Shown: piece after piece, positions 6,630 through 31,455 of the stretch
How the letters are laid out: every line of letters begins with the position of its first letter
Position numbering within the stretch: the stretch's first letter is position 1
Source: Streptosporangium becharense
GTDB taxonomy: Bacteria; Actinomycetota; Actinomycetes; Streptosporangiales; Streptosporangiaceae
DNA: 64,000 bases
Reading direction: 5' to 3'
Assembly: GCF_014204985.1 (NCBI RefSeq)
Contig: NZ_JACHMP010000001.1
Span: 7,130,001-7,194,000 of the forward strand
Position numbers and translations under genes: made by a program
The notes under the pieces: model-generated
What the model was told of the DNA's origin: nothing
What the model saw: the letters and a program-made list of their open reading frames with translations, nothing else
The model's database searches: none

Positions 6630-6642
6630 GGGGCCTCCCCGG

Positions 6643-7260: not shown

Positions 7261-7302
7261 TGGTCTGCGCTCCTTCGCGAAGGCACCGTCGGTGCGGGGT
7301 CG

Positions 7303-9027: not shown

Positions 9028-9287
9028 GGGGTGCGGGCGGTGAGCGCGGTGTTGACCAGTGCCAGCAGCTCCCCGGGGGTCATCTGCGCGTCCAGCACCG
9101 TGTCGTCGGGCAGCTTGATGCCGTAGCTGCGCTCGATCACGCTGGACGCCTCCAGCAGGGCGAGCGAGTCGTAGCCCAGCGTCTCGAAGGAGGAGTGCAG
9201 GGAGCCGCCGTCCATGTCGGTGCTCTCGTCCTGCCCGGCGCACTCCTGCATGATGCGCCGCAGGTCGGTGATGGTCAGTTCCGGCAT
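9024..9287 (-). CDS. Type II PKS acyl carrier protein
   Basis: This 87-residue acidic protein has the phosphopantetheine site [10 protein letters not shown], with Ser41 as the attachment residue. That is the pattern typical of aromatic PKS ACPs. The start is the ATG at 9287, preceded on the coding strand by AGGAGAAACG, a strong ribosome-binding site; the longer upstream frame lacks ACP homology. It lies 43 bp after the chain-length factor gene, in the canonical KS-alpha, CLF, ACP order. Its stop overlaps the accDA start. It tethers the growing poly-beta-ketone chain for the minimal PKS. Confidence 0.95.
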
Positions 9288-12418: not shown

Positions 12419-13258
12419 GTGGAGATCGGTGTTCTGGGATCGCTCGTCGTTCGCGTAGACGGAAAGTCGGCGCTGCCGTCCGCGCAGAAGCCGAGGCAGG
12501 TGCTGGCGTTACTCGTGCTCAATGCCAACCGCGTCGTCCCCATCGCCGCCCTCAGCCGGGAGTTATGGGACGACAAACCACCGCAAAGCGCCATGACGAC
12601 CCTGCAGACCTACGTACTTCACATCCGCAAGATCCTCGGCAAGGTGCTGGGGATGACATCGGCGCAGGTCGGCAGGGAGATTCTCGTCACCCGTCCGGGG
12701 GGCTACATGTTCAGGGTCGAGCCGGGTGCGCTCGACCTGCACGTCTACGAGCAGCGGCTGGCCGAGGGCCGGGCCGCGCTCGCCGTGGGCGACAACCACC
12801 GGGCGGCCCGGTTGCTGTGCGACGCGCTCACCCTGTGGCGTGACCCGCCGCTGGTGGACGTGCAGCCGGGCCGGCTGCTGGAAGTCCAGATCAGAAGACT
12901 GGAGGAGTCGAGGCTGAGCGCGCTGGAGCAACGCATCGAGGCGGACATGCGGCTCGGCCGCCACCACGACATCGTCAGCGAGCTGATCGAGCTCGCGGCC
13001 GAGCATCAGCTGCACGAGACGGTGCACGCGCAGCTGATGCTGACCTTCCACCGCTGCGGACGCCGGTCGAACGCGCTGACCGTCTTCCGGATGCTGCGCC
13101 GCTCGCTCTACGAGGAGCTCGGGCTCGAACCCTCGATGAAGCTGGAACGCCTTCACCAGGCGATCCTGTCGTGCGATCCGGTCCTCGACACGCCGTCCGA
13201 CACCGGAGCCCTGCTGCTGCTCGACCGCCTCGCCGAAGGCATGGTCCGCAGCGCCTGA
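12419..13258 (+). CDS. SARP family transcriptional activator (pathway-specific)
   Basis: This 279-residue protein is a small SARP like ActII-ORF4 and DnrI. The N-terminal OmpR-type winged helix covers about residues 1-95 (IGVLGSLVV, then LQTYVLHIRKIL). The bacterial transcriptional activation domain follows (about 100-245, including ALTVFRMLRRSLYEELGLEP). The GTG start is preceded by GAGGGG. Two leucines are encoded by TTA (12509-12511 and 12563-12565, codons 31 and 49), so translation probably depends on the bldA tRNA and hence on development. It lies divergent from the PKS operon. Candidate 11-bp-phased target repeats precede the KS-alpha, oxidoreductase, ABM, SDR and second LLM genes. Confidence 0.93.
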   Translation: MEIGVLGSLVVRVDGKSALPSAQKPRQVLALLVLNANRVVPIAALSRELWDDKPPQSAMTTLQTYVLHIRKILGKVLGMTSAQVGREILVTRPGGYMFRVEPGALDLHVYEQRLAEGRAALAVGDNHRAARLLCDALTLWRDPPLVDVQPGRLLEVQIRRLEESRLSALEQRIEADMRLGRHHDIVSELIELAAEHQLHETVHAQLMLTFHRCGRRSNALTVFRMLRRSLYEELGLEPSMKLERLHQAILSCDPVLDTPSDTGALLLLDRLAEGMVRSA

Positions 13259-14495: not shown

Positions 14496-15272
14496 ATGGA
14501 AGGTTCGCTCGCACTCGTCACCGGGGCCACCAGCGGCATCGGACTGGCCGTGACGCGACGGCTGGCCAGGGCCGGCCACCGCGTCTTCGTCTGTGCCCGC
14601 ACCCCGGACGCCGTCGAGACGACCGTCAAGGAGCTCACCGCGAACGGCTTCGCCGCCGACGGGGTGGCGGCCGACGTCCGCTCCGTGGAAAGCGTCCGCG
14701 ACTTCGTCCGCACCGCCGTCGAGCGGTACGGGCCGGTGGACGTCCTGGTCAACAACGCCGGCCGCAACGGCGGCGGGCCCACCGCGAAACTCGCCGACGA
14801 GCTGTGGCTCGACGTCATCGACACCAACCTGAACAGCGTCTTCTACGCCACCCGCGAGGCGCTCACCACGGGCGGGATGCTGGAGCGGGGGAGCGGCCGG
14901 ATCATCAACATCGCCTCGACCGGTGGCAAGCAGGGCGTCGTCCTGGGAGCCCCGTACTCCGCCTCCAAGCACGGCGTCGTCGGGTTCACCAAGGCCGTCG
15001 GCCTGGAGCTGGCCAAGACCGGGGTGACCGTCAACGCCGTCTGCCCCGGATACGTCGAGACGCCCATGGCCGAGCGGGTGCGCAAGGGCTACTCGCAGGT
15101 CTGGGAGATCACCGAGGACGAGGTGCTCCAGCGTTTCAACGCCAAGATCCCCCTCGGGCGCTACTCCACCCCCGAGGAGGTGGCGGGCCTCGTCTGGTAC
15201 CTCACCACCGAGGACGCGGCGCCCATCACCGCCCAGGCGATCAACGTCTGCGGCGGGCTCGGCAACTACTGA
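14496..15272 (+). CDS. Type II PKS C-9 ketoreductase (ActIII-like SDR)
   Basis: This 258-residue SDR resembles actinorhodin ActIII along its whole length. It has TGATSGIG for NADPH binding, N111, S141, Y154 and K158 as the catalytic set, and the family C-terminus INVCGGLGNY. It is expected to reduce the C-9 keto group of the nascent polyketide and so guide first-ring folding. The stereochemistry-associated PGG motif of ActIII reads N-G-G here (residues 91-93). The ATG at 14496 is used; an adjacent in-frame GTG at 14493 is equally possible, and AAAGGA lies upstream. It sits 38 bp after the MDR gene. Confidence 0.95.
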   Translation: MEGSLALVTGATSGIGLAVTRRLARAGHRVFVCARTPDAVETTVKELTANGFAADGVAADVRSVESVRDFVRTAVERYGPVDVLVNNAGRNGGGPTAKLADELWLDVIDTNLNSVFYATREALTTGGMLERGSGRIINIASTGGKQGVVLGAPYSASKHGVVGFTKAVGLELAKTGVTVNAVCPGYVETPMAERVRKGYSQVWEITEDEVLQRFNAKIPLGRYSTPEEVAGLVWYLTTEDAAPITAQAINVCGGLGNY

Positions 15273-15288: not shown

Positions 15289-16227
15289 GTGACGCTCCAC
15301 GAGACCGAGCACTCCGTCGTCGTCGACGCCCCGCCCAAGGTCGTCTTCGACCTGGTGGCCGACGTCACGCTCTGGCCCCGCATCTTCCCGCCGACGATCC
15401 ACGTCGAGCACCTGGACCGCGACGCGTCGCAGGAGACCATCCGCCTGTGGGCCACGGCCAACGGCCAGGTGAAGACCTGGACGTCCCGCCGGACCCTCGA
15501 CCCCGCCGGCACCAGGGTGGGCTTCCGCCAGCAGGTGTCGCAGCCGCCGGTGGCGGCCATGGGCGGAGAGTGGATCATCGAACCCCTCGGCCCGGGGCAG
15601 GTCAGGGTCCGGCTCACCCACGACTACCGGGCCGTGGACGACGACCCGGAGGCGGTCGCCTGGATCGCCGCGGCCGTCGACCGCAACAGTGGCGCCGAGC
15701 TGGAGGCGCTGAAGAGAGCCGCGGAACAGCCGCAGGACCTGGCCTTCTCCTTCGAGGACAGCGTCCACGTCGACGGCCCGATCGAGGCGGCGTACGCGTT
15801 CGTCCACGAGGCGGGCAGGTGGGCCGAACGGCTGCCGCACGTCGCCCGGGTCGACCTCAGCGAGGAGGTCGAGAACACCCAGATCCTGGAGATGGACACG
15901 CGGACCGCCGACGGATCCGTCCACACCACCCGGTCGGTCCGCATCTGCTTCCCCGGCGAGAAGATCGTCTACAAGCAGCTCAGGACCCCGGCGTTGTTGA
16001 CCGCCCACACCGGCCGCTGGACCTTCACCCGCGACGGCTCGGGGGGCCCGGGGGGCACGGTGACCTCCGGCCACACCGTCGAGATCGCCCCCGCCGCCGT
16101 CACCACCGTGCTCGGCGCCGGCGCCACCGTGGAGGACGCCCGCGCCTTCGTCCGCAAGGCGCTCGGCGCCAACAGCCGGGCCACACTCGCCCACGCCGCA
16201 ACCCACGCCCGAAGCGCCGCCCGCTGA
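15289..16227 (+). CDS. Didomain aromatase/cyclase (ActVII-like)
   Basis: This 312-residue protein consists of two START/Bet v 1-like halves. Residues about 1-150 begin ETEHSVVVDAPPKVVFDLV; residues about 160-300 have the matching FEDSVHVDGPIEAAYAFV. This is the arrangement of bifunctional aromatase/cyclases that work after a C-9 ketoreductase. They dehydrate and aromatise the first ring of a reduced polyketide. The start is a GTG at 15289 with AGGAGG upstream, 16 bp after the ketoreductase stop. Confidence 0.94.
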   Translation: MTLHETEHSVVVDAPPKVVFDLVADVTLWPRIFPPTIHVEHLDRDASQETIRLWATANGQVKTWTSRRTLDPAGTRVGFRQQVSQPPVAAMGGEWIIEPLGPGQVRVRLTHDYRAVDDDPEAVAWIAAAVDRNSGAELEALKRAAEQPQDLAFSFEDSVHVDGPIEAAYAFVHEAGRWAERLPHVARVDLSEEVENTQILEMDTRTADGSVHTTRSVRICFPGEKIVYKQLRTPALLTAHTGRWTFTRDGSGGPGGTVTSGHTVEIAPAAVTTVLGAGATVEDARAFVRKALGANSRATLAHAATHARSAAR

Positions 16228-17517: not shown

Positions 17518-18453
17518 TCAGGCCGTGCAGCGCAACGGGCTCCCGCCGTTGTAGGCCACCATCTCCCGCATCACGGGTGCGGAGGGGATGCGAGCCCCGG
17601 CGGGCAGGCCGCACTCCTCCGCGTACGCCCGGTGCAGGTTGGCGACCAGCCGCTCGGCGTCCAGCAGCGCGGCGAACGGCCCCAGCTCGGCCCGCCTGGC
17701 CGCCTCCAGCGGCGGCAGGCCGGCGGCGAGCCCGGTCCGCGCGACCTCGGACAGCCAGGTCAGGTACGCCTGCGTCTCGTCGAAGACGTCCGGGCCGCGC
17801 AGCGACCCGTGGCCGCACACGACGACCTCGGGCTCGAGCGCCCGCAGCCGCGCCACGGCCGCCGACAGGCCCTGTACCGATCCCATCAGCACGAACGGGG
17901 TGCAGCCCGACAGCACCAGGTCACCGGCGAACAGCACCCGCTCGGCGGGCAGCCAGACCACCACGTCGTTGGTCGTGTGCGCCGGGCCGACGTGGAACAC
18001 CTCGACGCGCCGGTCGCCCAGGTGCACGGTGAGCGCGTCCCGGAACGTCACCGCGGGCGGTTCCACCCTGATGTCGCCCCACTCGACCCCGGGCCACATC
18101 TCACGCAGCGCGAGGCCCCGCTCCACCATCTCGGTACGGGCCAGCTCGTGCGCGATCACCGTCGCCCGGGGGGTGAACAGGTGGTTGCCGAAGGTGTGGT
18201 CACCGTGGCTGTGGGTGTTGACCACCGTGCCGACCGGGAGCGGGGTGACCGCTGCGACGGCGTCACGCAGAGCGCGGGCCCGCCCCTCGGTCGCCGCGGT
18301 GTCGACGAGGAGCACCTCGCGCTCGCCGACGACGAACCCGGCGTTGTTCAGGCACCACCCGCCGTCGGGCTGGACGTAGGCGAAGACGCCCCGGTCCAGC
18401 CGTTCGACGGCCGCGCCGTAGGCGGAGGCGGTGCCGTGGCCCGGGACGCGCAT
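17518..18453 (-). CDS. MBL-fold hydrolase, probable second-ring cyclase (ActIV-like)
   Basis: This 311-residue metallo-beta-lactamase-fold protein has the zinc motif THSHGDH (H81, H83, D85, H86). Further metal-ligand candidates lie in GPAHTTND, FAGDLV and VVCGHGS. In aromatic PKS clusters with an ActIII-type KR and an ActVII-type ARO/CYC, the MBL protein (ActIV in actinorhodin) cyclises the second ring and releases the chain, so that role is inferred. The ATG at 18453 overlaps the stop of the upstream ABM gene as ATGA, giving a two-gene operon controlled by the SARP-type operator at 18784-18840. Confidence 0.88.
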   Translation of the reverse strand: MRVPGHGTASAYGAAVERLDRGVFAYVQPDGGWCLNNAGFVVGEREVLLVDTAATEGRARALRDAVAAVTPLPVGTVVNTHSHGDHTFGNHLFTPRATVIAHELARTEMVERGLALREMWPGVEWGDIRVEPPAVTFRDALTVHLGDRRVEVFHVGPAHTTNDVVVWLPAERVLFAGDLVLSGCTPFVLMGSVQGLSAAVARLRALEPEVVVCGHGSLRGPDVFDETQAYLTWLSEVARTGLAAGLPPLEAARRAELGPFAALLDAERLVANLHRAYAEECGLPAGARIPSAPVMREMVAYNGGSPLRCTA

Positions 18454-18752
18454 CACACGACGGACGGGGAGCCCTCCAGGACGACCTCCGACAGGTGCGG
18501 ATCCCCGGTCACCACCCCCGCCAGCCGCTTGAACTGCGCGCGGAACTCGGGGTCGGCCACCGACTTCTCGAACTGCTCGCGGCTCTCCCACTCGGCGAGG
18601 TTGAAGTAGACCGAGGCGTCCTTGGTCGACCTGACCAGCTTGTACCTGATCAGACCGTCCTGCTTCATCATGAAGGCCGCTATGTCGGCGTAGATGGCCT
18701 CGAACTCCTCGGCGGAGCCGACCAGCGTGAGCTTGTTGACGAACACGACCAT
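18453..18752 (-). CDS. Antibiotic biosynthesis monooxygenase (ABM) domain protein
   Basis: This 99-residue ferredoxin-like dimeric alpha-beta protein has the ABM pattern (VFVNKLTLVG, then YFNLAEWESREQFEKSV). The ActVA-ORF6/TcmH group oxidises anthrones or phenols to quinones without a cofactor, and that reaction fits this cluster. The start is the ATG at 18752, with GAGAGAGG upstream. The longer frame upstream would run through the operator and is rejected. It is translationally coupled to the MBL gene. Confidence 0.88.
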   Translation of the reverse strand: MVVFVNKLTLVGSAEEFEAIYADIAAFMMKQDGLIRYKLVRSTKDASVYFNLAEWESREQFEKSVADPEFRAQFKRLAGVVTGDPHLSEVVLEGSPSVV

Positions 18753-18783
18753 GTGCGTACCTCTCTCGCGGGTGATCTCCTCC

Positions 18784-18840
18784 ACCTTGGGCGAGCGGCG
18801 TCGAAGCCCGATCGAGGAACGCTCGAGCCCGGATCGAGCG
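18784..18840 (-). promoter_or_regulatory. SARP-type operator with four 11-bp-phased TCGA heptamers
   Basis: On the minus strand TCGATCC, TCGAGCG, TCGATCG and TCGACGC occur at exact 11-bp intervals (18831-18837, 18820-18826, 18809-18815, 18798-18804). After 8 bp comes CAAGGT (18784-18789) as the -10. The predicted start near 18777 gives a leader of about 25 nt to the ABM ATG. TCGA is palindromic, so the array also reads in phase on the plus strand, but no -10-like hexamer sits 8 bp beyond it there. Confidence 0.7.
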
Positions 18841-19007
18841 CCGTCTCCGCCGCACCCGCGCCGTGTCACGATGCGAGGGCGGCCCGCCCTCCCGGCGGCC
18901 GGCCCTCCACGATCCGTCTTCCCCGGTGGCCGGTTCTTCCCCCGGCCTTCTCTCCCGGCGGCCGGGCCTCTCCCCGGCGGCCCGCCCCCGACGTCCGGAG
19001 GTCACCC

Positions 19008-20108
19008 ATGCCCGTGCCCCAGCAACGCGATCCCCAGCTCACCCGGCGCCGCCTGACCACCTGGCTCGCCGACCGGCTCCCCGACGCCGCTGACCTGCGC
19101 CTGACCGAGCTGACGATCCCGCCGTCACGGGGCTTCGCCAACGAGACGCTCATCGTGCGCGCGCGGACCGCCACCCGGGACCACCACCTGGTGGTCCGGG
19201 TCGAGCCGGCCGCGCACCGCGTCTACCCGCGCGGCAGCCTCGACGCCGAATACCGGCTGATGCGCGGCCTGGCCGCGACCGGCACGGTGCCGGTGCCCGC
19301 CGTCCACTTCCACGAACCCGACGCCTCCGTGCTGGGCGCCCCCTTCCTGGTCATGTCGTTCGTCCCCGGGGACGTGCCGGGCGACCTGCCCTCCTATCAC
19401 TCGGCCGGTTGGCTGGCCGAGCTGGAACCGCGGCGCCGGGCGGAACCGTGGCGTGCCGCGCTGGCCGCCCTCGCCGCCGTCCACCGCCTGCGGCCCGGCG
19501 ACCTCGGCCTGGGCTTCCTCGACCGGCCCGCCTTCGGCCCCACCGGCACCGCGCAGGAGCTCGGCTACTACGCGGCCCACCTCGACTTCTTCGGCTGCGC
19601 CGACGAGCCCGTCCCGCTCGCCGCGCTGGAGTGGCTGAAGGCGAACCGGCCGGCCGGGGAGGCGGCACCCGGCCTGCTGTGGGGCGACGCCCGGCTCGGC
19701 AACATCGTCTTCCGCGACCTGAGACCGGTCGCCCTGCTCGACTGGGAGATGGCGGCGCTCGGCCCGGCGGAGATCGACCTGGGTTGGTTCCTGTGGATGG
19801 ACCGGTTCCTGAGTGAGGGGATCGGCGTCCCGCGCCTGGCGGGCCTGCCCGGCCGCGCCGAGACCGTCGCCGAGTTCGGGCGTCTGCTCGGGCGTCCCGT
19901 GCGGGACCCGCACTACTACGAGGTGCTCGCGGGCTTCCGGTTCGCCCTGATCACCGCGCGGGTGCAGCGGTTGCTGGACACCTCCGGCACGCTGCCCCCC
20001 GGCGTCACCGTGCCCCTGCACGCCAACGCCGTCCGGCTGCTGGCGGCCGTGACGGGAACGGGTGAGCCCGCCGCGACGCGGGTCAAGTCCGGCTCGACCT
20101 CGCCTTGA
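19008..20108 (+). CDS. APH-like phosphotransferase family protein
   Basis: This 366-residue protein has the aminoglycoside-phosphotransferase/kinase fold. There is a nucleotide-binding N-lobe, a catalytic loop WGDARLGN (an HxD-type loop with Trp replacing His) and a metal-binding segment LLDWEMA. The ATG at 19008 is well supported by GGAGG 7 nt upstream. Members phosphorylate small molecules such as antibiotics, and others act in acyl metabolism. A self-resistance or tailoring role is possible but unproven. It is divergent from the ABM-MBL operon and 25 bp upstream of the flavin reductase gene. Confidence 0.8.
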   Translation: MPVPQQRDPQLTRRRLTTWLADRLPDAADLRLTELTIPPSRGFANETLIVRARTATRDHHLVVRVEPAAHRVYPRGSLDAEYRLMRGLAATGTVPVPAVHFHEPDASVLGAPFLVMSFVPGDVPGDLPSYHSAGWLAELEPRRRAEPWRAALAALAAVHRLRPGDLGLGFLDRPAFGPTGTAQELGYYAAHLDFFGCADEPVPLAALEWLKANRPAGEAAPGLLWGDARLGNIVFRDLRPVALLDWEMAALGPAEIDLGWFLWMDRFLSEGIGVPRLAGLPGRAETVAEFGRLLGRPVRDPHYYEVLAGFRFALITARVQRLLDTSGTLPPGVTVPLHANAVRLLAAVTGTGEPAATRVKSGSTSP

Positions 20109-20133
20109 GAGGCGGCTGCGAGCCTGTCGAATC

Positions 20134-20655
20134 ATGGCTGTCGATGCGAATGTCTTCCGTGAGGTCTTCGGAGCGCTGCCCACCGCCGTCGCCGTCGTGA
20201 CGGCCAACGGCCCCCACGGGCCGTCCGGGCTGGCCTGCAACACCGTCGCCGCGGTGTCGCTGCGTCCGCCGCTGCTGCTGGTCTGCGTCGACCGCGGCTC
20301 GCTCACCCTGGGAGCGATCAGGGACTCGGGCGCGTTCGTGGTCAACTACCTGCTCGCCGGCCGGGGGGAGCTGTGCGACAGGTTCGCCGGCAAACTCCCG
20401 GACAAGTTCTCCGGCGTGTCCCACGTCGCGTCGGTGGTCGCCGCGGGCGCGCCCGTCCTCACCGAGGACTCGCTGGCCGTGGCCGAGTGCGTGCTGACCG
20501 AGGCGGTCGAGACGGGGGACCACTGGATCCTCATCGGGCTCATCGAACACGCCACCGTCTACGGCGGGACACCGCTGACCTACTTCCGCCGCCGGTACGA
20601 CTCCTGGCCGGAGGCACGCCCGGCGGGCTCGGCCGCCGTCCGAGAGGTCGTCTGA
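20134..20655 (+). CDS. Flavin reductase domain protein (ActVB-like)
   Basis: This 173-residue protein has the flavin-reductase split-barrel pattern (FREVFGALPTAVAVVTA, GLACNTVAAVSLRPPLLLVC, FVVNYLL). It supplies reduced flavin to a partner oxygenase. The obvious partners are the luciferase-like monooxygenases, one of which begins 39 bp downstream. The ATG at 20134 has no strong ribosome-binding site, and the gene may rely on readthrough from the kinase-like gene. Confidence 0.88.
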   Translation: MAVDANVFREVFGALPTAVAVVTANGPHGPSGLACNTVAAVSLRPPLLLVCVDRGSLTLGAIRDSGAFVVNYLLAGRGELCDRFAGKLPDKFSGVSHVASVVAAGAPVLTEDSLAVAECVLTEAVETGDHWILIGLIEHATVYGGTPLTYFRRRYDSWPEARPAGSAAVREVV

Positions 20656-20694: not shown

Positions 20695-21780
20695 GTGCAG
20701 TTCGGCATCAGCATCTTCCCCACCATCGGACCCGAGGACAAGAGCGGCCGGGACCACTTCCGCGACGCGCTGGAGCTCGCCCGGCTCGCCGACGAGCTCG
20801 GCCTCCACCACGTCAAAACGGTGGAGCACTACTTCTTCCGCTACGGCGGCTACAGCCCCGACCCGGTGACGTTCCTGGCCGCCGCCGCGGCCCGCACCCG
20901 CCGGATCCGCCTCGTCACGGGCGCCGTCATCCCGGCCTTCACCCACCCGGTCAAGCTCGCCGGGCAGCTCGCCATGCTCGACAACCTCTGCCGCGGCCGG
21001 CTCGACGTCGGCTTCGGCCGGGCCTTCCTGCCGGACGAGTTCGCCGCCTTCGAGATCTCCATGGACGACAGCCACAGCCGCTTCCGGGAGGGCGTGGAGG
21101 CGTGCCGCCGCCTGTGGTCGGAGCAGGACGTCGTCTGGGAGGGCGGCCACCACCGGTTCGGGCCGGTCACCCTGCTGCCCAGGCCGTTCCAGGACCCGCA
21201 CCCGGGAATCCTGATCGCCACGTCGATCACCCCCGAGTCGTGCGCGGCGGCCGGCCGCGCCGGGTACGGCCTGATGATGGTGCCCTCGATCAACAAACGG
21301 GAGAAGACCCAGGAGATGCTGGCCCTGTACCGCAGGGCCCGCGCCGAGGCGGGGCACGACCCGGAGACCGGGGAGGTGCACATGAGCTACAACTGCTACC
21401 TCGCCGAGGACGGGGCGGAGGCCCGCCGGAAGGGACGCGCCTACTCCGAGGTCACCAACCGGGTGATGACGGACGCGGTCGCGGCGTGGGGACGCACCGG
21501 CAGCGCCGACTACCCCGGGTACGAGCGCGTGCTGGAGAAGGTGCGCGGCTCCGACTTCGACCGGTCCCTCGGGGAGAACAAGGTGCTCGTCGGCTCACCC
21601 GATGAGGTGGTGGAGAAGGTGCGCGTCATCCGGGAGTGGTTCGGCGACGTCACGCTCAGCCTCCAGGTCATCTCCGGGAACGTGCCGCACGAGGAGTCGG
21701 CGCGGACGGTGCGCCTGTTCGCCGAGCATGTGATGCCCCGCTTCACCGAGAGCGTGCCGGCCGGGACGCTCTCCGCCTGA
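20695..21780 (+). CDS. Luciferase-like FMN-dependent monooxygenase (LLM) 1
   Basis: This 361-residue protein is a bacterial-luciferase-family TIM barrel. Features include FGISIFPTIG at the start, HHVKTVEHYFF, TGAVIPAFTHPVKLA, and LDNLCRGRLDVGFGRAFLPDEF. It would use reduced flavin, likely from the adjacent reductase, to oxygenate a polyketide intermediate, for example by hydroxylation, epoxidation or Baeyer-Villiger chemistry. The GTG start follows AAGGAGG. A close paralogue starts at 22806, and the two probably arose by duplication inside the cluster. Confidence 0.9.
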   Translation: MQFGISIFPTIGPEDKSGRDHFRDALELARLADELGLHHVKTVEHYFFRYGGYSPDPVTFLAAAAARTRRIRLVTGAVIPAFTHPVKLAGQLAMLDNLCRGRLDVGFGRAFLPDEFAAFEISMDDSHSRFREGVEACRRLWSEQDVVWEGGHHRFGPVTLLPRPFQDPHPGILIATSITPESCAAAGRAGYGLMMVPSINKREKTQEMLALYRRARAEAGHDPETGEVHMSYNCYLAEDGAEARRKGRAYSEVTNRVMTDAVAAWGRTGSADYPGYERVLEKVRGSDFDRSLGENKVLVGSPDEVVEKVRVIREWFGDVTLSLQVISGNVPHEESARTVRLFAEHVMPRFTESVPAGTLSA

Positions 21781-22686: not shown

Positions 22687-22750
22687 GCATGCCTCCTTGA
22701 TCGAGAGCCGGGGTGAGCGCGGGATGCGATCGTCCCCGTCCGTGGGGAAC

Positions 22751-22799
22751 ATGCTGTCTATCCGCTCTTGAGTTGCGCTCGAGCCCGGCTTGCGAGGCT
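22751..22799. promoter_or_regulatory. Divergent SARP-type operator between the SDR and LLM2 genes
   Basis: On the plus strand TTGAGTT (22768) and TCGAGCC (22779) are in 11-bp phase, followed after 8 bp by GAGGCT (22794-22799), pointing at LLM2. On the minus strand TCGAGCG (22776-22782) and TCAAGAG (22765-22771) are in 11-bp phase, followed after 8 bp by CAGCAT (22751-22756), pointing at the SDR gene. The LLM2 start codon is about 7 nt after its -10, so that message may be leaderless. Confidence 0.5.
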
Positions 22800-22805
22800 G
22801 AGCGC

Positions 22806-23882
22806 GTGAAATTCGGCGTGCTTTTCTTCCCGACGGTGGGCCCGCAGGAGAAGTCCGCGGCCGACTACTACGACGAGGCACTGCGGCTGGCCGTGCTGGC
22901 CGACGAGCTGGGCTTCCACCACTTGAAGATCGTTGAGCACTACTTCTTCGACTTCGGTGGTTACAGCCCCGACCCGGTGACGTTCCTGGCGGCCGCCGCC
23001 GCGAGGACCAGCCGGATCCGCCTGTGCACCGGGGCGGTCATCCCCGCGTTCACCCATCCCGTGAAGCTCGCGGGCAAGCTGGCCATGCTCGACGGCATCT
23101 CGGGCGGCCGGCTCGACGTGGGCTTCGGCCGGGCGTTCCTGCCCGACGAGTTCGCCGCGTTCGAGATCCCGATCGACGAGAGCCGCGCCCGCTACGAGGA
23201 GGGCGTGGAGGCGTGCCGCCGCCTGTGGGCGGAGGAGGACGTCGTCTGGGAGGGTGACTTCTACCGGTTCGGCCCGGTGACGCTGCTGCCCCGTCCGGTC
23301 CAGCAGCCGCACCCGCCGGTCTTCTCGGCCGTCACCGCCAGCCCCGAGTCCGTGGAGGCCGCAGCCCGCGCCGGCCGCAACCTCCAGATCATCGCCGCGG
23401 TCTCCCCGAAGGAGAAGGTCCAGGAGATGCTGGACCTGTACCGCAAGACGCGCGCGAGCGCCGGCCATGACCCCGACACCGCCCGCGTCGAGCTCAGCTA
23501 CAGCCTCTTCCTGGACGAGGACGGCGACGAGGCCCGCCGCGGCGGGCGCCACGCCGAACAGAAGTACGGCGAGAAGATCGCCGAGGCGGTGAAGTCCTGG
23601 AAGACCACGACCAGCACCGCCTACCCCGGCTATGAGAAACTGGCCGAGGCGGCGCTCAGGCAGGGGGCGACCTTCGACGAGCGGGTCGCCGCCAACCGTC
23701 TCCTCGCGGGAACACCCGAGGAGGTGCGAGCGCAGATCGACACCCTCGCCTCCTGGTACGGCGACGACGTCGACATCAGCCTCACCGTCCACTCCGGCCA
23801 CCTGCCCTACGAGACCAGCGCACGGGCCCTGCGGCTGTTCGCCGAGCGGGTCACACCCGGTCCGGCGCCGCTGTCCCGCTGA
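22806..23882 (+). CDS. Luciferase-like FMN-dependent monooxygenase (LLM) 2
   Basis: This 358-residue paralogue of the upstream LLM has the same barrel motifs (HHLKIVEHYFF, TGAVIPAFTHPVKLA, GRLDVGFGRAFLPDEF). They diverge in the substrate-facing middle segment and the C-terminal third. It starts with GTG at 22806 and lacks a clear ribosome-binding site, consistent with a leaderless message from the SARP-type promoter. It heads the operon LLM2, MFS, P450, ferredoxin, MDR. The flavin reductase encoded at 20134 is the likely source of reduced flavin. Confidence 0.9.
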   Translation: MKFGVLFFPTVGPQEKSAADYYDEALRLAVLADELGFHHLKIVEHYFFDFGGYSPDPVTFLAAAAARTSRIRLCTGAVIPAFTHPVKLAGKLAMLDGISGGRLDVGFGRAFLPDEFAAFEIPIDESRARYEEGVEACRRLWAEEDVVWEGDFYRFGPVTLLPRPVQQPHPPVFSAVTASPESVEAAARAGRNLQIIAAVSPKEKVQEMLDLYRKTRASAGHDPDTARVELSYSLFLDEDGDEARRGGRHAEQKYGEKIAEAVKSWKTTTSTAYPGYEKLAEAALRQGATFDERVAANRLLAGTPEEVRAQIDTLASWYGDDVDISLTVHSGHLPYETSARALRLFAERVTPGPAPLSR

Positions 23883-23909: not shown

Positions 23910-25352
23910 ATGTCCGCAACCCGGCACTGGTGGATGCTGGCGGCCATCGCCATCGCCCAGCTCACGGTCGTCCTCGAGATGAACGTCATGCCGATCGCGC
24001 TGCCCTCCGTCCAGGAGGAGCTCGGTGTCCCGGACGCCGAGAAGCACTGGGTGATCAGCGCGTACACCCTCGCCTTCGCCGGCCTGTACCCGCTGGCGGT
24101 GCGCGTGGCCGGCCTGCGCGGCAGGCGCCGCACCTTCGCCGTCGGCATGACCGGCTTCACCGTCGCCTCCGTCGTGGCGGGGACGGCCGCGACGGCCGGG
24201 ACGCTGCTCGCCGCCCGCGCGATCCAGGGGGGCTTCGGCGCGTTCCTGCTGGCCCCGGCCAACCTCGCCTTCATCGGCGGCGCGTTCGCCGACCCGCGCG
24301 TACGGGCCCGGGGCATCGCCGTCTTCACCGCCGTGGCCGGCGGGGGAGGGGTGGCCGGCGTCGTCGTGGCGGGCCTGCTGACCGAGTACCTGAGCTGGCG
24401 CTGGTGCCTGTTCGTCGTCGTCCCCCTGGCGATCTTCTCCGTCACCGTCGCCTGGTACGCCTTCGGGCGGGACGTCCCCGCCGAGGGCCGCCGCCACTAC
24501 GACCTGCCCGGAACGCTCCTGCTCCTCCTCGGCCTCGGCGCGCTCGTCGCGGGCGTCGGCGCCTTCGCCACGGCCGGGCCGGGGCTCGCCGTCGCGGTGC
24601 TGACGGTGGCGGCGCTGCTGCTGGCCGGGTTCGCCCTGACCGAGCGGGCCTCGCCGGCGCCGGTGCTGCCGCCCCGCATCGTGCTCGACCGCAACCGGGC
24701 CGGCGTCTACCTGGCGGTCTTCTCCGCGAACATCGGCACCTTCGGCGCCTACCTGCTGCTCAGCTCCCTCATGCAGGACGTGCGCGGATACTCCCCGCTC
24801 CAGGCGGGCCTGGCCTTCCTCCCGCTGAGCGTCGCGGTGCTTGCGGGCACCGCGGTGGCCGGCCGCCTGCTGCCCGGCCTCCGGCCGCGGGTCCTGCTGG
24901 GCGGCGGGCTGGCACTGGCCGGCCTCGGTGTGGGCTGGCCGGCGCTGGCCGGCCTCGACGGGGGGTACGCCGTGACGATCCTGCCCGGCGTGCTGCTGAT
25001 GGGCCTGGGCGTCTCCTGGATCATGGTGCCCGCCAACGTCACCATCATGCAGGGCCTGGACCCCCGCGACGCCGGGGTGGCCACCCCCATGGTCAACGCC
25101 TCCACCCAGCTCGGCGGTGTGGTCGGGGCGCCGCTGCTGACCGTGGTCGCCGCGGTCGCCGCCGCCTCCGGAAGCGGGGACGGCGGCGTCGCGGTCGCCG
25201 CCGCGGCGGGCGGCGCGCTGATCCTCCTGGCCGCGGCCGTGGTCTTCGTCCTCGTCGACCGGGGACGCCTGGCCATGGGTCCCCCACCGCCTCCCGCGGC
25301 ACCCGCGGCTCCCCCCGCAGACAACCTCGTCACCCCTGGAGATCGCCCATGA
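23910..25352 (+). CDS. MFS drug exporter (DHA2-like, probable 14 TMS)
   Basis: This 480-residue hydrophobic protein has the DHA2-type start (QLTVVLEMNVMPIALPSVQ), the WVISAYTLAFAG helix and a glycine-rich antiporter-type segment (FTAVAGGGGVAGVVV). It probably exports the finished polyketide. The motif A loop reads RVAGLRGRRR, missing the usual acidic residue of DxxGRR. Its stop overlaps the P450 start as ATGA. An in-frame GTG at 23904 is an alternative start. Confidence 0.88.
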   Translation: MSATRHWWMLAAIAIAQLTVVLEMNVMPIALPSVQEELGVPDAEKHWVISAYTLAFAGLYPLAVRVAGLRGRRRTFAVGMTGFTVASVVAGTAATAGTLLAARAIQGGFGAFLLAPANLAFIGGAFADPRVRARGIAVFTAVAGGGGVAGVVVAGLLTEYLSWRWCLFVVVPLAIFSVTVAWYAFGRDVPAEGRRHYDLPGTLLLLLGLGALVAGVGAFATAGPGLAVAVLTVAALLLAGFALTERASPAPVLPPRIVLDRNRAGVYLAVFSANIGTFGAYLLLSSLMQDVRGYSPLQAGLAFLPLSVAVLAGTAVAGRLLPGLRPRVLLGGGLALAGLGVGWPALAGLDGGYAVTILPGVLLMGLGVSWIMVPANVTIMQGLDPRDAGVATPMVNASTQLGGVVGAPLLTVVAAVAAASGSGDGGVAVAAAAGGALILLAAAVVFVLVDRGRLAMGPPPPPAAPAAPPADNLVTPGDRP

Positions 25353-26557
25353 GCACCACCGGAGCCGCCACGGCCCCCGCCTACCCCTTCACCCACCGCG
25401 AGACCGTCCTGCACGCACCCAGCGCGCTCACCGAGTGCCGCCGGGAGCCCGCCATGCGGGTGACGCTGCCCAGCGGCGACGTCGTGTGGCTGGTCACCCG
25501 CTACCAGGACGTCCGCGTCCTGCTCTCCGACGAGCGGCTGAGCAGGAACCGCGACCAGCCGGACGCACCGCGCATCACCAAGGACAACTCGATGTTCCAG
25601 GACCCGAACGTGAGCCTGGACCCGCCGGATCACCCGCGCATGCGCAGGCTGGTCGCCAAGGCGTTCACCGCCGCCCGCGTCGAGCGCATGCGTCCGCACA
25701 CCCAGGAGCTCGTCGACCGGCTGCTCGACGACACCGCCGCCGCGGGCCCGCCCGCCGACCTGCACCGGACGCTGACGTTCCCGCTCGCCATCACGACCCT
25801 GTGCGAGCTGCTGGGTGTGCCGGTGGAGGACCAGAAGGACTTCCGGCACTGGACCGACGCCTTCCTGTCCGTCAGCAAGTACACCCCCGAGGAGATCGGC
25901 CGCTGCCGCGGCGAGCTGTTCGCCTACATCGAGCGCCTGGTAGAGGCCAAGACGAACGAGCCCGGCGGGGACCTGATCAGCGCGCTCATCGCGGCCCGGG
26001 ACGAGGACAGCAACCGGCTCAGCCACTACGAGCTGCTGTACTGGGCACAGGGGCTGCTGATGGGCGGGTACGAGACGACCGCCAGCCACCTCGGCGCGGC
26101 GATCGTCACGCTCCTGGCCAACCCCGGCCTGCTGGCCAGGGTCCGCGACGACCTGTCGCTGGTCCCGCAGGCGCTGGAGGAGATGCTCCGCCTGCAGGTG
26201 CTGTTCTCCTCCATGGCGGCGCTGCGCTACGCCAAGGAGGAGATTGAGGTCGGCGGGATGACCATCCCCCGGGGGGCGGGCGTCGTGCTGGCGATGGAGT
26301 CCGCCAACCGCGACGAGACGGTCTTCCCCGACCCCGAGACCCTCGACATCGACCGTCCCAGCCACCTGCACCTGGCCTTCAGCGCCGGACCCCACCACTG
26401 CGCGGGCTCGGCGCTCGCCCGGATGGAGATGCAGACGGCGATCACCTCGCTGCTGCGCAGGTTCCCCACGCTGAAGCTGGCGGTGGACCCGCTGGAGCTG
26501 CGCCGGGCCGAGGGCGGCCTGGTCGAGGGCTTCCTCGAGGTCCCGGTGACCTGGTGA
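25349..26557 (+). CDS. Cytochrome P450 (cluster tailoring enzyme)
   Basis: This 402-residue soluble bacterial P450 has the I-helix oxygen-binding stretch GGYETT, the K-helix ExxR (EEML-R) and the heme loop FSAGPHHCAG with its axial cysteine. It hydroxylates or oxidatively couples a pathway intermediate. Electrons come from the ferredoxin encoded 10 bp downstream. Its ATG overlaps the exporter stop codon, so the two are co-translated. Confidence 0.93.
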   Translation: MSTTGAATAPAYPFTHRETVLHAPSALTECRREPAMRVTLPSGDVVWLVTRYQDVRVLLSDERLSRNRDQPDAPRITKDNSMFQDPNVSLDPPDHPRMRRLVAKAFTAARVERMRPHTQELVDRLLDDTAAAGPPADLHRTLTFPLAITTLCELLGVPVEDQKDFRHWTDAFLSVSKYTPEEIGRCRGELFAYIERLVEAKTNEPGGDLISALIAARDEDSNRLSHYELLYWAQGLLMGGYETTASHLGAAIVTLLANPGLLARVRDDLSLVPQALEEMLRLQVLFSSMAALRYAKEEIEVGGMTIPRGAGVVLAMESANRDETVFPDPETLDIDRPSHLHLAFSAGPHHCAGSALARMEMQTAITSLLRRFPTLKLAVDPLELRRAEGGLVEGFLEVPVTW

Positions 26558-26567
26558 GGAGCGGACC

Positions 26568-26780
26568 GTGCGCGTCGAGGTGAACCCCGACAGCTGCTGC
26601 GGCAGCGGCGTCTGCGTCGTCTCCGCACCCGAGGTCTTCGGCGAGGACGAGGACGGGCTCGTCCGGCTGATCGACCCCGAACCCGCCGGCGACCTGCACG
26701 CCCAGGTCCGCCAGGCCGCCGACCGCTGCCCGACGGAGAGCATCCGCCTGCTGGAGAAGGATCCGGAGCCCGAGCCGTGA
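26568..26780 (+). CDS. Ferredoxin, [3Fe-4S]-type P450 partner
   Basis: This 70-residue acidic ferredoxin has a CCGSGVC cluster motif and a distal cysteine before Pro (RCPTESI), typical of the small 3Fe-4S ferredoxins next to actinobacterial P450s. It delivers electrons to the adjacent P450. The GTG start at 26568 follows AGGAGCGG. Its stop overlaps the next gene's GTG as GTGA. Confidence 0.92.
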   Translation: MRVEVNPDSCCGSGVCVVSAPEVFGEDEDGLVRLIDPEPAGDLHAQVRQAADRCPTESIRLLEKDPEPEP

Positions 26781-27787: not shown

Positions 27788-28026
27788 CGCCCGGCCGGAC
27801 GGCGTCCCCGGCGGCCCCGAGGGCGCCGGTCCCGGGTCACTACGGCGTCAGGCGGCGGGCCGGCCGCCGTCCCACAGGGCCTGGTCCGGGTGGGCGAGGC
27901 GACGTGACGGCCGCCGTCGCCCCGCCCACCCGCCAGATCGCTTGCGCCGCCGCTCCGGCAGCCCGCCCGCCGACCCGGCGGACCGTGAACCGCCGGGCCT
28001 CGCCGGTCGCCGGCGCCGCCGGTGGG

Positions 28027-29136
28027 TCAGCCGGTCTGCACGCGCATGGTGAGATCGGTCCCGAGCACGCTCCCGAGCCGGTCGGCCTCGGCCTGGAGCT
28101 GTTTGCGGGGGACGTCGCACTCCTTCCAGACGGTGACCGACAGCGCGCCGTCCTCGGCGTTCCAGGTACCGCAGACCCGGCCCCCGCTCACCACGACGGG
28201 TGAGATCCATCCGGCGGCCTTGCTGATCTCCCCGCGCCGGGCGGAGGGGATGATCGCGGTGTCCTTGGTGCCCGGCCCCAGGACGTACTGGTCGAAGGCC
28301 GGGAGCAGGCGCACCGAGGTGGAGGGGGTGGCCGAGGCCAGGTCGTCGAGGTCCTCGGTGCGCGCGTAGGCCGCCTGCCCCTCGATCTCGACCTTGGTGA
28401 GCCGGTCGCCCAGGTCGGCGACCCAGGAACGCAGGTCGGCCTTGCGCAGGGCGCCGCGGTACAGCCACTGGTCGAACGCCTCGATCGGCGCGGGCCCGTA
28501 GGCCCCGAGGTAGGCGGGGATCGCGACCGCCGCGGCCTCCGCGGGCTCCGGCATGCCCGGCCACTTGGGCAGGTAGGTGTCGGGCCGGGTGAAGGTCACC
28601 CGGCCGCCGTCGGCCGGACCGTGGCACAGCACCCCCTGGAACGCCAGGGGCTTGAGCACCGCGCCCCAGCCGGAGCTCATGTGCTCGGCGATGTTCTCGT
28701 CGCCCGTCTTCTCGATCACCTTCGCGGTCAGTTCCTCGCGGCTGAGCACCTTGCCGTCCAGGACGTGATGGACGGCCTCGCCGATGGCCTCCAGCCGGTC
28801 GAGGGTGACGAAGTTGCGCTGCCAGGAACCCTTCTCCCAGCTGCGGGTCGAGGCCAGCAGGCTCAGGTAGGCGGCGGCCTCCTCGACGGGGAGCAGGTGC
28901 AGGGTGCCGCGCATCGCCCAGGTCTTGACCAGCTTCTTGTCTTCCAGGGCGTCCTTGACGCTCTGGCGGCGCGGTTTACGCTGCCGGACGCCGACCGCCG
29001 TCTGCGCCGAGGAGGCGACCTGCGCCTGCACTCCGCACAGCCGGCTCACGATCGCCACGGCGTCGTCGGTCTCCGGTTCCTCCAGCATCTGCCGGCGCAT
29101 CCGCCAGGCGAGGACGTTGTCCCAGGTGATCTTCAC
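28027..29136 (-). CDS. AlkZ-like DNA glycosylase / winged-helix DNA-binding protein
   Basis: This 369-residue protein belongs to the HTH_42/YcaQ-AlkZ superfamily. It carries the catalytic-type Q-A-Q motif at residues 37-39 (LCGVQAQV), plus the family segments TWAMRGTLHLLP, SSGWGAVLKPLAFQG and LLPAFDQYVLG. AlkZ and relatives such as HedH4 remove bulky alkyl-guanine adducts or unhook crosslinks made by the producer's own genotoxin. The GTG start overlaps the TetR stop as GTGA. The TetR/exporter context beside a type II PKS cluster points to self-resistance and implies a DNA-reactive product. The family assignment is strong; the role here is inferred. Confidence 0.85.
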   Translation of the reverse strand: MKITWDNVLAWRMRRQMLEEPETDDAVAIVSRLCGVQAQVASSAQTAVGVRQRKPRRQSVKDALEDKKLVKTWAMRGTLHLLPVEEAAAYLSLLASTRSWEKGSWQRNFVTLDRLEAIGEAVHHVLDGKVLSREELTAKVIEKTGDENIAEHMSSGWGAVLKPLAFQGVLCHGPADGGRVTFTRPDTYLPKWPGMPEPAEAAAVAIPAYLGAYGPAPIEAFDQWLYRGALRKADLRSWVADLGDRLTKVEIEGQAAYARTEDLDDLASATPSTSVRLLPAFDQYVLGPGTKDTAIIPSARRGEISKAAGWISPVVVSGGRVCGTWNAEDGALSVTVWKECDVPRKQLQAEADRLGSVLGTDLTMRVQTG

Positions 29137-29879
29137 GTGATCTCCTCACTCGGGTGCGGGGCGTGGCGGGCGAGCCCCTCGATGATCAGATCCAGGCCGA
29201 ACTCGTAGCGGGCCTGTCCGTCGCCGGCGATCAGTTCGGCGGCGTGGGCGGTCAGGATCGGGAAGCGATCGGGCGGAAGGCTCGCGTAGTAGTCGCGGAT
29301 CTGCCCGAAGAAGTCGCGTGCGAACTCCGGCACGTCCTTGCCGCTGGCCCGTTGCTGGGCGAGGAAGAGCGACGACTCGTACGTGGCGCCGGAGATGTAG
29401 AGCAGCAGGCGGTCCATGCCCAGGGAGGCGATCCGGACCGGCAGGCCGCCGGCCAGCATGATCGCGAGCATGCCCTCGGAGAGCCGTAGCGTGCCGGGGC
29501 CGGTCGGCACGTTGGCCAGGCCCGCGGCGGCGATGTCGGCGTGCGCCATCAGCACCCGCGCGCAGTCGAGCGCCAGTTCGCGGAGCTGCTCGCGCCAGCG
29601 GGCCGGATCGGGCTCGGGGACCGGGACCTCGCTGATCACGCGCTCGTAGATCAGCTCGATCAGTTCGTCCTTGTTGGCCACGTGGGCGTAGAGGGAGGCC
29701 GCCCCCGTCCCGAGGACCTGCGCGACCTTGCGCATGCTGAGCGCCTCCAGGCCCTCGGCGTCGAGGACGGACAGGCCGGCCTCCACGATCGCCTCCAGGG
29801 TCAGCGGCTGCCTGAGCGGCGCGCGAACCCGGGTTTTTCGCCAGGGCGGCTGAGGTATGGCTGTCGCCTGGTGCTCCAT
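29133..29879 (-). CDS. TetR family transcriptional regulator
   Basis: This 248-residue repressor has an N-terminal HTH (LTLEAIVEAGLSVLDAEGLEALSMRKVA split across helices, then GTGAASLYAHVANKDEL) and a TetR_C-like ligand domain. It is divergent from an MFS exporter, with a palindromic operator between them, and upstream of the AlkZ-like gene with a 4-bp overlap. It probably derepresses exporter and glycosylase when it binds the toxic product. Confidence 0.93.
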   Translation of the reverse strand: MEHQATAIPQPPWRKTRVRAPLRQPLTLEAIVEAGLSVLDAEGLEALSMRKVAQVLGTGAASLYAHVANKDELIELIYERVISEVPVPEPDPARWREQLRELALDCARVLMAHADIAAAGLANVPTGPGTLRLSEGMLAIMLAGGLPVRIASLGMDRLLLYISGATYESSLFLAQQRASGKDVPEFARDFFGQIRDYYASLPPDRFPILTAHAAELIAGDGQARYEFGLDLIIEGLARHAPHPSEEIT

Positions 29880-29892
29880 GCGAACATCGTAC

Positions 29893-29921
29893 TTGACACG
29901 AACAGTGTTCGTTAATAAAAC
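29893..29921 (+). promoter_or_regulatory. Promoter with TetR operator palindrome upstream of the MFS gene
   Basis: TTGACA (29893-29898) and TAAAAC (29916-29921) are 17 bp apart. The spacer holds a perfect 15-bp palindrome at 29898-29912 (ACGAACA-G-TGTTCGT). A further related half-site (ACGAACA) lies at 29934-29940. Repressor binding here would block the polymerase. Confidence 0.65.
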
Positions 29922-29976: not shown

Positions 29977-31455
29977 ATGGCCCACGATAAGAACGCGACC
30001 TCCCCGGGCGCGCAGCCCGGAGCCCCGCACCGCTGGAGGTGGGCGGCGCTCTTCGTGATCCTCGCCGCGCAGGTGATGGACCTGCTCGACGCGCTCATCG
30101 CCACCATCGCCTCGCCGGTGATCCAAACGGACCTCGGGGGTTCCTCCAGCCTGATCCAGTGGATCGGGGCCGGCTACACCCTCGCGCTCGGCGTCGGCCT
30201 CATCACCGGAGGCCGCCTCGGCGACATCTACGGGCACCGCCGCATGTTCCAGCTCGGCCTCGCCGGGTTCACGCTGGCCTCCCTGCTGTGCGGCCTGGCC
30301 TCCTCCCCGGAGATGCTGGTCGCCGCCCGGGTCCTGCAGGGACTGGCCGGAGCCCTGGTGATCCCGCAGGGGCTCAGCATGATCAAGCAGATGTTCCCGC
30401 CGCAGGAGCTGGGCGCCGCCTTCGGCGCCTTCGGGCCCGTCATCGCCCTGTCGTCCGTGGGCGGGCCCATCCTGGCCGGATGGCTGATCCAGGCCGACCT
30501 CTTCGGCACCGGCTGGCGGATGATCTTCCTGATCAACCTGCCGGTGGGGGTGCTCGCCCTCGCCGGGGCGTTCCGCTTCCTGCCCCGCCAGACCGAACGC
30601 ACCGCCTCCAACCTGGACATCCCCGGCATGCTGCTCGTCTCGGCGGCGCTGTTCATGCTGATCTTCCCGCTCGTGCAGGGGCGGGAACTGGGCTGGCCGC
30701 TGTGGACGTTCGCCTCGATGATCGGCTCCCTGGCCGTGTTCACCGCCTTCTGGCGCTACGAGATCGCCAGGCAGCGCGCCGGCCGCGACCCGCTGGTCAT
30801 CCCCGGCCTGTTCCGCAAACGGGCCTTCAGCGGCGGCCTGGTCAGCGGGCTGGCGTTCTTCACCGGAACCGTCGGCTACTCCCTCGTCTTCAGCATGTAC
30901 GCCCAGTTCGGGCTGGGCTACTCGCCGCTGAAGACGGGCATGTCGTTCCTCGCGCAGGCGATCGGCACGGTCATCGGGTTCGGCCTGGTCAACGCGGGTC
31001 TCAACGCCCGCCTGGGCCGCAAGCTGATCCACCTGGGTGCGGTGATCATCATGCTGGGCGTGGCGGGCGTCGGCCTGACCGCGTACCTGGCGGGCCGGGG
31101 AGTGACGCCGTGGCAGCTCACCCCCGGCCTGGTCCTCACGGGCATCGGCGTCGGCCTGCTCATGGCGCCGTTCTTCGACATCATCCTCGCCGGGGTGGAG
31201 GTGCACGAGATCGGCTCCGCCTCCGGCGCGCTCACCGCGACGCAGCAGATCGGCGGGGCCTTCGGCATCGCCGCGCTGGGCACGATCTTCTTCGGCCTGA
31301 CCGGCGGCGGGTGGGCTCCGCTGTCGGCCTTCCTCGTCGCGATCTCCGTCACCCTCGTCGGCCTGGTCGCCACGTTCTTCCTGGCCTTCCTGCTGCCCCG
31401 CTCGGCACGTGAGCAGCAGGACTGGCAGGGACAGGGGCAGACGCAACCGGCCTGA
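29977..31455 (+). CDS. MFS transporter, DHA2 family multidrug exporter
   Basis: This 492-residue membrane protein has DHA2 features: MDLLDALIATIASPVIQ in helix 1, WIGAGYTLALG, GGRLGDIYGHRRMF (motif A) and a proline/glycine-rich antiporter helix (FGAFGPVIALSSVGGPILAG). It likely pumps out the compound sensed by the divergent TetR. The ATG at 29977 is chosen; upstream in-frame codons would run through the operator. It is the second exporter of the cluster region. Confidence 0.92.
   Translation: MAHDKNATSPGAQPGAPHRWRWAALFVILAAQVMDLLDALIATIASPVIQTDLGGSSSLIQWIGAGYTLALGVGLITGGRLGDIYGHRRMFQLGLAGFTLASLLCGLASSPEMLVAARVLQGLAGALVIPQGLSMIKQMFPPQELGAAFGAFGPVIALSSVGGPILAGWLIQADLFGTGWRMIFLINLPVGVLALAGAFRFLPRQTERTASNLDIPGMLLVSAALFMLIFPLVQGRELGWPLWTFASMIGSLAVFTAFWRYEIARQRAGRDPLVIPGLFRKRAFSGGLVSGLAFFTGTVGYSLVFSMYAQFGLGYSPLKTGMSFLAQAIGTVIGFGLVNAGLNARLGRKLIHLGAVIIMLGVAGVGLTAYLAGRGVTPWQLTPGLVLTGIGVGLLMAPFFDIILAGVEVHEIGSASGALTATQQIGGAFGIAALGTIFFGLTGGGWAPLSAFLVAISVTLVGLVATFFLAFLLPRSAREQQDWQGQGQTQPA

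Follow-up and report, generated by a model that had tools for sequence, protein, structure and literature searches.

An AlkZ-like DNA glycosylase gene at the edge of a putative azinomycin-type aziridine and type II polyketide gene cluster in Streptosporangium becharense

AlkZ-like (AZL) DNA glycosylases include AlkZ of Streptomyces sahachiroi, which serves self-resistance to azinomycin B. The azabicycle of azinomycin is described as being formed from glutamate, either acetylated or bound to an amino-group carrier protein, by phosphorylation, reduction, transketolase extension, amination, sulfation and ring closure (PMC9570651), AziU3/U2 being described as functionally an aziridine synthase (PMC12559475), and the azinomycin synthetase AziA2 is reported with a C-PCP-C architecture (PMC3778384). 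Further AZL glycosylases, namely HedH4, TxnU2/U4 and LldU1/U5, are described for producers of aromatic polyketides (PMC9040887, PMC8934636) and are compared here by description. The mensacarcin enzyme MsnO8 forms an epoxide, and by analogy the same is proposed in rishirilide biosynthesis for the luciferase-like monooxygenase RslO1 (PMC8093152).

The window, i.e., the whole stretch of 64,000 nucleotides from S. becharense that was analysed, contains at 28027..29136 (reverse strand) an AZL DNA glycosylase gene with a GTG start and 369 codons for amino acids. The Pfam profile PF06224 (HTH_42, AlkZ-like) matches residues 30-355 over profile positions 1-327 of 329 (E 3.8e-48, 165 bits against a cut-off of 25.9), and the top PDB match is AlkZ (5uuj; E 2.1e-106, query 1-359), with a blastp identity of 48.9% over 362 positions to the S. 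sahachiroi protein; the window glycosylase is an additional member of the already known AZL family. The Q-A-Q motif at residues 37-39 (codons at 29020..29028, reverse strand), which a sequence-only reading of this locus had named as the catalytic pattern of AlkZ, does line up with the Q-A-Q of 5uuj. The protein exhibits the (Q/H)-aliphatic-Q motif of AZL glycosylases, and the Q-aliphatic-D motif of YcaQ-like (YQL/AlkX) housekeeping glycosylases is absent. In an alignment of 65 proteins, most of them picked by similarity to the window glycosylase, the motif site reads QAQ in 59, QSQ in three and QID or QLD in three. Among the three PF06224 genes of the own genome, the window gene alone is close to AlkZ, the others reaching 26% and 17%. 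QAQ alone was rejected as diagnostic evidence, as the paralog at C1:708 kb, with 24% identity, carries it too. The third gene, at C1:2755 kb, encodes a QLD protein and is situated near a gene read as ComF-like, which fits the neighbourhood described for YcaQ-like genes in PMC9040887.

Genes resembling the aziridine pathway lie mostly to the left of the window, adjoining the type II polyketide synthase (PKS) genes, in a segment designated L122 (G000:C1:7110001-7130000, G000 being the own genome; the window coordinate is the L122 position minus 20000). A sulfotransferase gene (L122:5775-6683, reverse strand; Pfam) is followed by genes for a thioesterase, a P450, a free carrier protein and, according to Pfam, the two transketolase halves, and then by a DegT-type aminotransferase gene (L122:10545-11831, reverse strand). 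The next two genes, both on the reverse strand, encode homologs of AziU3 (L122:11828-12790; Azi29 E 5.5e-58, AziU3 E 6e-58) and AziU2 (L122:12814-13416; Azi28 E 8e-41, AziU2 E 9.5e-41), and the Azi29/AziU3 and Azi28/AziU2 chains are their sole PDB matches at E<=0.01. A gene for LysW (L122:13592-13768, forward strand) is followed, in this order, by those for LysX, LysY, LysZ, LysK, an SDR and a nonribosomal peptide synthetase (NRPS) of C-A-PCP type. The LysW, LysZ and ArgC-like proteins exceed NCBIfam equivalog cut-offs, whereas LysX (256.9 vs 275.6) and LysK (360.7 vs 363) remain just under theirs. The C-A-PCP gene starts at L122:18408 and its 3' part occupies 1..1773 of the window (forward strand; A and PCP domains by Pfam on 61-1773); it is succeeded at 1830..5150 (forward strand) by a gene with the C-PCP-C architecture of AziA2, in which Condensation is matched in two stretches together with PP-binding.

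Thus both AziU3 and AziU2 homologs are present, as well as the kinase, reductase, transketolase, aminotransferase and sulfotransferase of an azinomycin-type azabicycle pathway in its LysW/LysX version, and the presence of LysW favours the carrier-protein variant of the route. The iterative type I PKS for the naphthoate, which characterizes the azinomycin B cluster proper, is lacking, and KS-alpha, KS-beta and an acyl carrier protein (ACP) of type II are found instead; no type I PKS occurs among the cluster proteins scanned, a scan that stopped short of L121:5418-9413 beyond the cas genes. These CRISPR-cas genes (Cas3, Cse1, a CRISPR-associated protein and Cas1) are located left of the aziridine block at L121:14340-18957 and L122:1498-3160.

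The type II PKS set comprises KS-alpha at 10539..11807 (Pfam; match to the actinorhodin KS with 4.1e-197), KS-beta or chain-length factor at 9331..10668 (Pfam; open reading frame, its true start probably later) and an ACP with the motif LGYDSL at 9024..9287 (PF00550, 2.1e-7; translation), all on the reverse strand; the ACP was missed by a regular-expression search and recovered with PF00550. Acetyl-CoA carboxylase genes (biotin carboxylase, biotin carrier, carboxyltransferase; Pfam) span 5259..9243 on the same strand, and given the ACP gene the true start of the last of these reading frames is probably lower. On the forward strand follow a SARP-type regulator (BTAD) at 12419..13258 (Pfam), a ketoreductase (SDR) at 14496..15272 (Pfam on frame 14073-15272, start read from the sequence) and an aromatase/cyclase at 15289..16227 (Polyketide_cyc2); SnoaL-like proteins also belong to the set. 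A metallo-beta-lactamase-fold protein and an ABM-type monooxygenase are encoded at 17518..18869 on the reverse strand (Pfam). The forward-strand frame at 18495..20108 encodes an APH-fold protein (PF01636, 6.5e-30) whose domain begins at about residue 210, the true start being later. It is a possible second resistance gene, and azinomycin AziR, to which it is likened by description alone, is described as an aminoglycoside transferase (PMC9570651). Further forward-strand genes are those for a flavin reductase (20062..20655; Pfam), for two luciferase-like monooxygenases, both with RslO1 (PDB 7bip) as top match, at 20695..21780 (a candidate epoxidase; 3.6e-164) and 22713..23882 (2.9e-141), and for a cytochrome P450 with ferredoxin (25352..26780; Pfam), the P450 being 68-69% identical in two sister clusters. 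The placement of the glycosylase gene at the edge of a type II PKS cluster, as claimed in the sequence-only reading, is borne out by the KS-alpha, KS-beta, ACP and aromatase/cyclase genes. Its further prediction of a DNA-alkylating or crosslinking metabolite gains support from the homologs of AziU3/AziU2, of LysW/X/Y/Z/K and of the C-PCP-C protein. The AZL gene adjoins aziridine and type II PKS genes of a cluster whose product is predicted to be DNA-reactive.

From these homologies and this gene order we infer the following pathway. Glutamate, probably on the LysW-like carrier, would be phosphorylated, reduced, extended by transketolase, aminated and sulfated, and AziU3/AziU2 would close the sulfated intermediate to the aziridine. 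The other half of the product would be a type II polyketide modified by the RslO1-like, possibly epoxide-forming, monooxygenases, and the C-A-PCP and C-PCP-C proteins would join the azabicycle and polyketide halves. The glycosylase would cleave the bond between alkylated purine and sugar by means of its Q-A-Q residues, and the abasic site left behind would pass to base excision repair. The adjoining cluster probably makes a new DNA-damaging compound, and the glycosylase most likely gives self-resistance to an azinomycin-like aziridine compound that also contains an aromatic part of type II polyketide origin.

Two sister clusters are found in genomes G1004 and G1096. Their genus, that of G363, is presumably Streptomyces, because an AZL of its member G809 shares 98% identity with AlkZ. 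The left block of G1004 contains the AZL, C-PCP-C, C-A-PCP and SDR genes, LysK to LysX, AziU2 and AziU3 (both 61%), and continues with homologs of the aminotransferase, transketolase, carrier, P450, thioesterase and sulfotransferase, and then with NRPS genes. Its polyketide part comprises the P450 (68%), KS-beta (64%), KS-alpha (72%), an ADH (65%) and the aromatase/cyclase (58%), and SARP (49%), APH (52%), flavin reductase (47%), MFS1 (45%) and both luciferase-like monooxygenases (70% and 67%) are present as well, such that the azabicycle and type II PKS halves are found within one 80-kb stretch. In G1096 this left block recurs, together with the P450 (69%) and, where the fetched stretch ends, KS-beta (58%). 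The queries run on these clusters comprised neither ACP nor LysW, and neither the window TetR nor the second MFS has a match in the stretches read of G1004 or G1096. Both clusters were met through their AZL genes, so the presence of AZL in them is no independent count. The window AZL is situated at the cluster edge, whereas the sister AZLs lie next to the C-PCP-C gene.

Concerning its phylogeny, the window AZL groups with AlkZ, apart from E. coli YcaQ (100/100, the outgroup branches being long), in a tree without HedH4, TxnU and LldU; a placement with housekeeping YcaQ, which the sequence-only reading had named as evidence against itself, is not observed, and the nearest relatives have other neighbours. 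Sinosporangium siamense provides its sister AZL (support 100/98, 69% identity), and both belong to a small group made up of same-family members and one Acidimicrobiaceae MAG. Around the closest AZL relatives (59-67%), no aziridine or PKS matches occur in what was fetched; this applies to the six group members examined (Sinosporangium, G019 and G018 among the nearest), the Sinosporangium locus being read on one side, with the contig ending 103 bases beyond the gene. In this and the following comparisons, an AZL outside a cluster means that the query genes have no match in the stretch fetched. The AZLs of G1004 and G1096 share another lineage: a single clade of these two with the window AZL is rejected (AU p 4.8e-5), i.e., the sister clusters do not keep one glycosylase lineage. 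Lineage conservation across sister clusters is no published criterion for such AZLs, and AZLs are known to vary. A single clade of nine aziridine-linked AZLs is likewise rejected (p 1.8e-76); the first tree was already at hand when the groups of both AU tests were named, which makes these p-values indicative. The aziridine-linked AZLs are scattered, well-supported branches forcing at least four label changes in the first tree and at least three in the second. The trees leave out L015, which duplicates the locus L044, and those AZL matches that lack a locus; L041 (internal stop) was omitted from both, and own708k, L014 and L045 also from the second; L138 was labelled as non-aziridine in the first tree and left unlabelled in the second. 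We read this distribution as repeated and separate recruitment of AZLs into aziridine clusters, chance adjacency in this strain being the main rival. As the sister AZLs are no orthologs of the window gene and the fetched surroundings of its closest relatives contain no match to PKS or aziridine genes, this gene was probably recruited separately.

The glycosylase gene is preceded by a gene for a TetR-family repressor (TetR_C_1) at 29133..29879 (reverse strand; Pfam), with which it overlaps by four bases, the GTG start of AZL and the TGA stop of TetR sharing bases in gtga; this suggests translational coupling. Divergent from it lies the gene of a DHA2-type MFS exporter (MFS_1, EmrB- and TcmA-like) at 29977..31455 (forward strand), for which 29977 is the probable true start, not the 29857 from which the reading frame is listed. 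The link to a TetR gene divergent from an exporter agrees with the sequence-only reading. Between the divergent genes, the palindrome CGAACAGTGTTCG at 29899..29911 is a probable TetR operator; it has one match in the window at up to one mismatch, against 0.10 expected, and exact copies exist in two of nine TetR/MFS intergenic regions of the genus (L193 and L194). No sigma-70-like promoter or terminator was found in 27700-31600. TetR probably represses the exporter together with its own operon, including the coupled glycosylase, and the aromatic product would release it, such that export and repair would rise together. MFS homologs at E<=1e-100 are found in 14 of 16 genus genomes (own included), and TetR homologs of 38-57% identity adjoin the MFS gene in all nine other genus loci examined, none of which has an AZL match (about 1.5 kb of flank). 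As this pair is common in the genus and stands without AZL in the nine other loci, AZL seems to have joined an efflux unit that was already resident. The TetR/MFS partnership was rejected as evidence for a genotoxin, and as a pointer to a genotoxic product the cassette is weaker than had been claimed, being an ordinary genus-wide efflux unit.

Across the family, AZL at E<=1e-110 is found in 48 of 341 genomes (best five candidates scored per genome) and AziU3 homologs at E<=1e-20 in 18, both together in seven (own included in each count; Fisher one-sided p 0.0067, kinship ignored); by genus, both occur in six, AZL in 15 and AziU3 in 11 of 68 genera (p 0.011, kinship again ignored). The two genes are linked in G000, G052 and G106 and unlinked in G019, G229, G232 and G237. 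Both G052 and G106 have an azinomycin-like cluster that repeats the window's gene order from sulfotransferase to C-A-PCP; a C-PCP-C gene adjoins, and about 27 kb separate AZL and AziU3. The G052 block has no carrier-protein match (queries without LysW), and the KS match of 28-29% in both agrees better with a PKS of type I than with one of type II. Around the 17 other AziU3 loci of the family no AZL is found within about 20 kb, where contigs allowed, and the azinomycin-like aziridine cluster of G228 (L176, L177, L209, L210) has none on its whole 69-kb contig. As a control, ten neighbourhoods of KS-alpha from other genomes of the family, each covering about 35-40 kb in two stretches of up to 20 kb, gave no AZL match. 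Conversely, aziridine-pathway or C-PCP-C genes accompany AZL in seven (L085, L087, L232, L233, L234, L237 and L238) of 37 AZL neighbourhoods (20 plus 17, up to about 10 kb a side) and are not found in the other 30.

In a separate sample of 126 genomes from the genus of G363, nine possess AziU3, three of them (G808, G809, G818) with an AZL within 8 kb, and the other six show no AZL among the best five candidates scored per genome. G052, G106, G1004, G1096, G808, G809 and G818 likewise pair AZL with aziridine-pathway genes; these were met by looking around AZLs and show recurrence, not a rate. AZL at E<=1e-110 occurs in three of 396 genomes of a phylum sample (own included; again the best five candidates scored per genome). 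A scan of named genomes gave five AZL loci, and a plasmid collection has ten records with an AZL match (best 49%) and two records that match 2-4% of the stretch 15289-27787. In G022, an AZL with 61% to AlkZ lies beside a P450 46% identical to that of the window (L095:9460-11987), without other query matches in 20 kb.

Taken together, it is quite probable that the gene encodes an AZL-family glycosylase which protects its producer from a DNA-alkylating, possibly crosslinking, product of the adjoining cluster. The window and the two sister loci would, somewhat less securely but with the balance of probability in favour, represent an undescribed cluster family that combines an azinomycin-type azabicycle (aziridine) with an aromatic type II polyketide, possibly bearing a second reactive epoxide, as an intercalating DNA crosslinker, in which the self-resistance glycosylase has been swapped for another AZL lineage, here under a TetR that also controls efflux. 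Alternatively, a general-purpose AZL repair gene might have been caught in a resident TetR/MFS drug-response operon that guards against outside alkylators and lies beside the cluster by chance. This explanation agrees with the absence of PKS or aziridine matches from the fetched surroundings of the nearest AZLs, with genus TetR/MFS pairs, two with the identical palindrome, that have no adjoining AZL, with the rejection of a common clade with the sister-cluster AZLs, and with AZL and AziU3 being unlinked in four genomes and the G228 cluster having no AZL on its contig. We nevertheless regard it as rather unlikely, since the only AlkZ-close one of three PF06224 genes is found in the stretch with the aziridine cluster, outside the backbone common to the examined genus relatives, and seven other genomes pair AZL with aziridine-pathway genes. 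The product prediction of the sequence-only reading is supported by the aziridine genes, whereas the AZL gene by itself would be no proof of a genotoxin, its closest relatives showing no PKS or aziridine matches in what was fetched around them.

That the glycosylase confers self-resistance to a type II polyketide epoxide alone, of hedamycin or trioxacarcin type, the azabicycle genes forming a separate abutting cluster, would be in line with the two RslO1-like monooxygenases and the flavin reductase, and AZLs are described as serving the hedamycin and trioxacarcin producers (PMC9040887, PMC8934636); G1004 keeps both halves in 80 kb, however, and G1096 combines the azabicycle half with the P450 and KS-beta, which makes this very improbable. 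Least probable of all is that the protein shares the winged-helix fold but has a non-catalytic or regulatory role: some AZLs are described from clusters with products that are not known to alkylate (PMC9040887), but here Q-A-Q is intact and the similarity to an active enzyme extends over nearly the full length.

To the right of the cassette, in the segment 31832-35803 that possibly belongs to the cluster, a styrene monooxygenase-like flavoprotein and a flavin reductase are encoded beside an AraC-type regulator at the right edge (33691-35803). Formate dehydrogenase genes (39528-43527, 76-89%) are conserved in the six genus relatives examined, and in one of these (G013) a 70% homolog of the dienelactone hydrolase at 35972 lies beside them. 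The formate dehydrogenase alpha subunit (39528-46129 region) exhibits an in-frame TGA at residue 191, which is probably read as selenocysteine, because a selenophosphate synthetase-like gene (AIRS domains; 44699-45973, reverse strand) and a selenocysteine tRNA (46038-46129, forward strand) are nearby. Elsewhere in the window, a TNT (tuberculosis necrotizing toxin) domain is matched in the protein encoded at 37098-38153 (E 2.9e-30), and at 51399-57874 a RamC-type lanthipeptide synthetase-like gene is accompanied by genes for an ABC transporter and a P450.

These results replace a guess based on a motif by a concrete prediction: a DNA-alkylating natural product of a new type, for which both the warhead pathway and a repair enzyme to match it can be named. 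The sister clusters, with presumably related products and differing AZL lineages, would moreover constitute a natural test of the origin of AZL specificity. In the literature searched, open-licence papers alone, no hybrid of azinomycin type and type II polyketide was found.

The aziridine of azicemicins derives from aspartate and is not known to arise via the LysW/AziU3 route. Like the predicted window product, azicemicins are described as combining an aziridine with a type II polyketide (PMC4384478). The products guarded by HedH4, TxnU2/U4 and LldU1/U5 alkylate through epoxides, whereas an aziridine is predicted for the window cluster. With the azinomycin B cluster, as described in PMC9570651 and PMC3778384, the window locus shares AziU3/U2, glutamate phosphorylation and reduction, transketolase, sulfation, C-PCP-C and AZL, and its predicted chemistry varies the known azinomycin scheme by drawing on a PKS of type II: the azinomycin B cluster uses the iterative type I PKS AziB, whereas the window possesses type II KS-alpha, KS-beta and ACP as well as luciferase-like monooxygenases. 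AlkZ itself resembles the window AZL in near-full length, in Q-A-Q and in its association with a cluster containing AziU3/U2 and C-PCP-C, whereas the window AZL belongs to a different lineage, marks the edge of its cluster and is coupled to TetR, with an MFS gene alongside.
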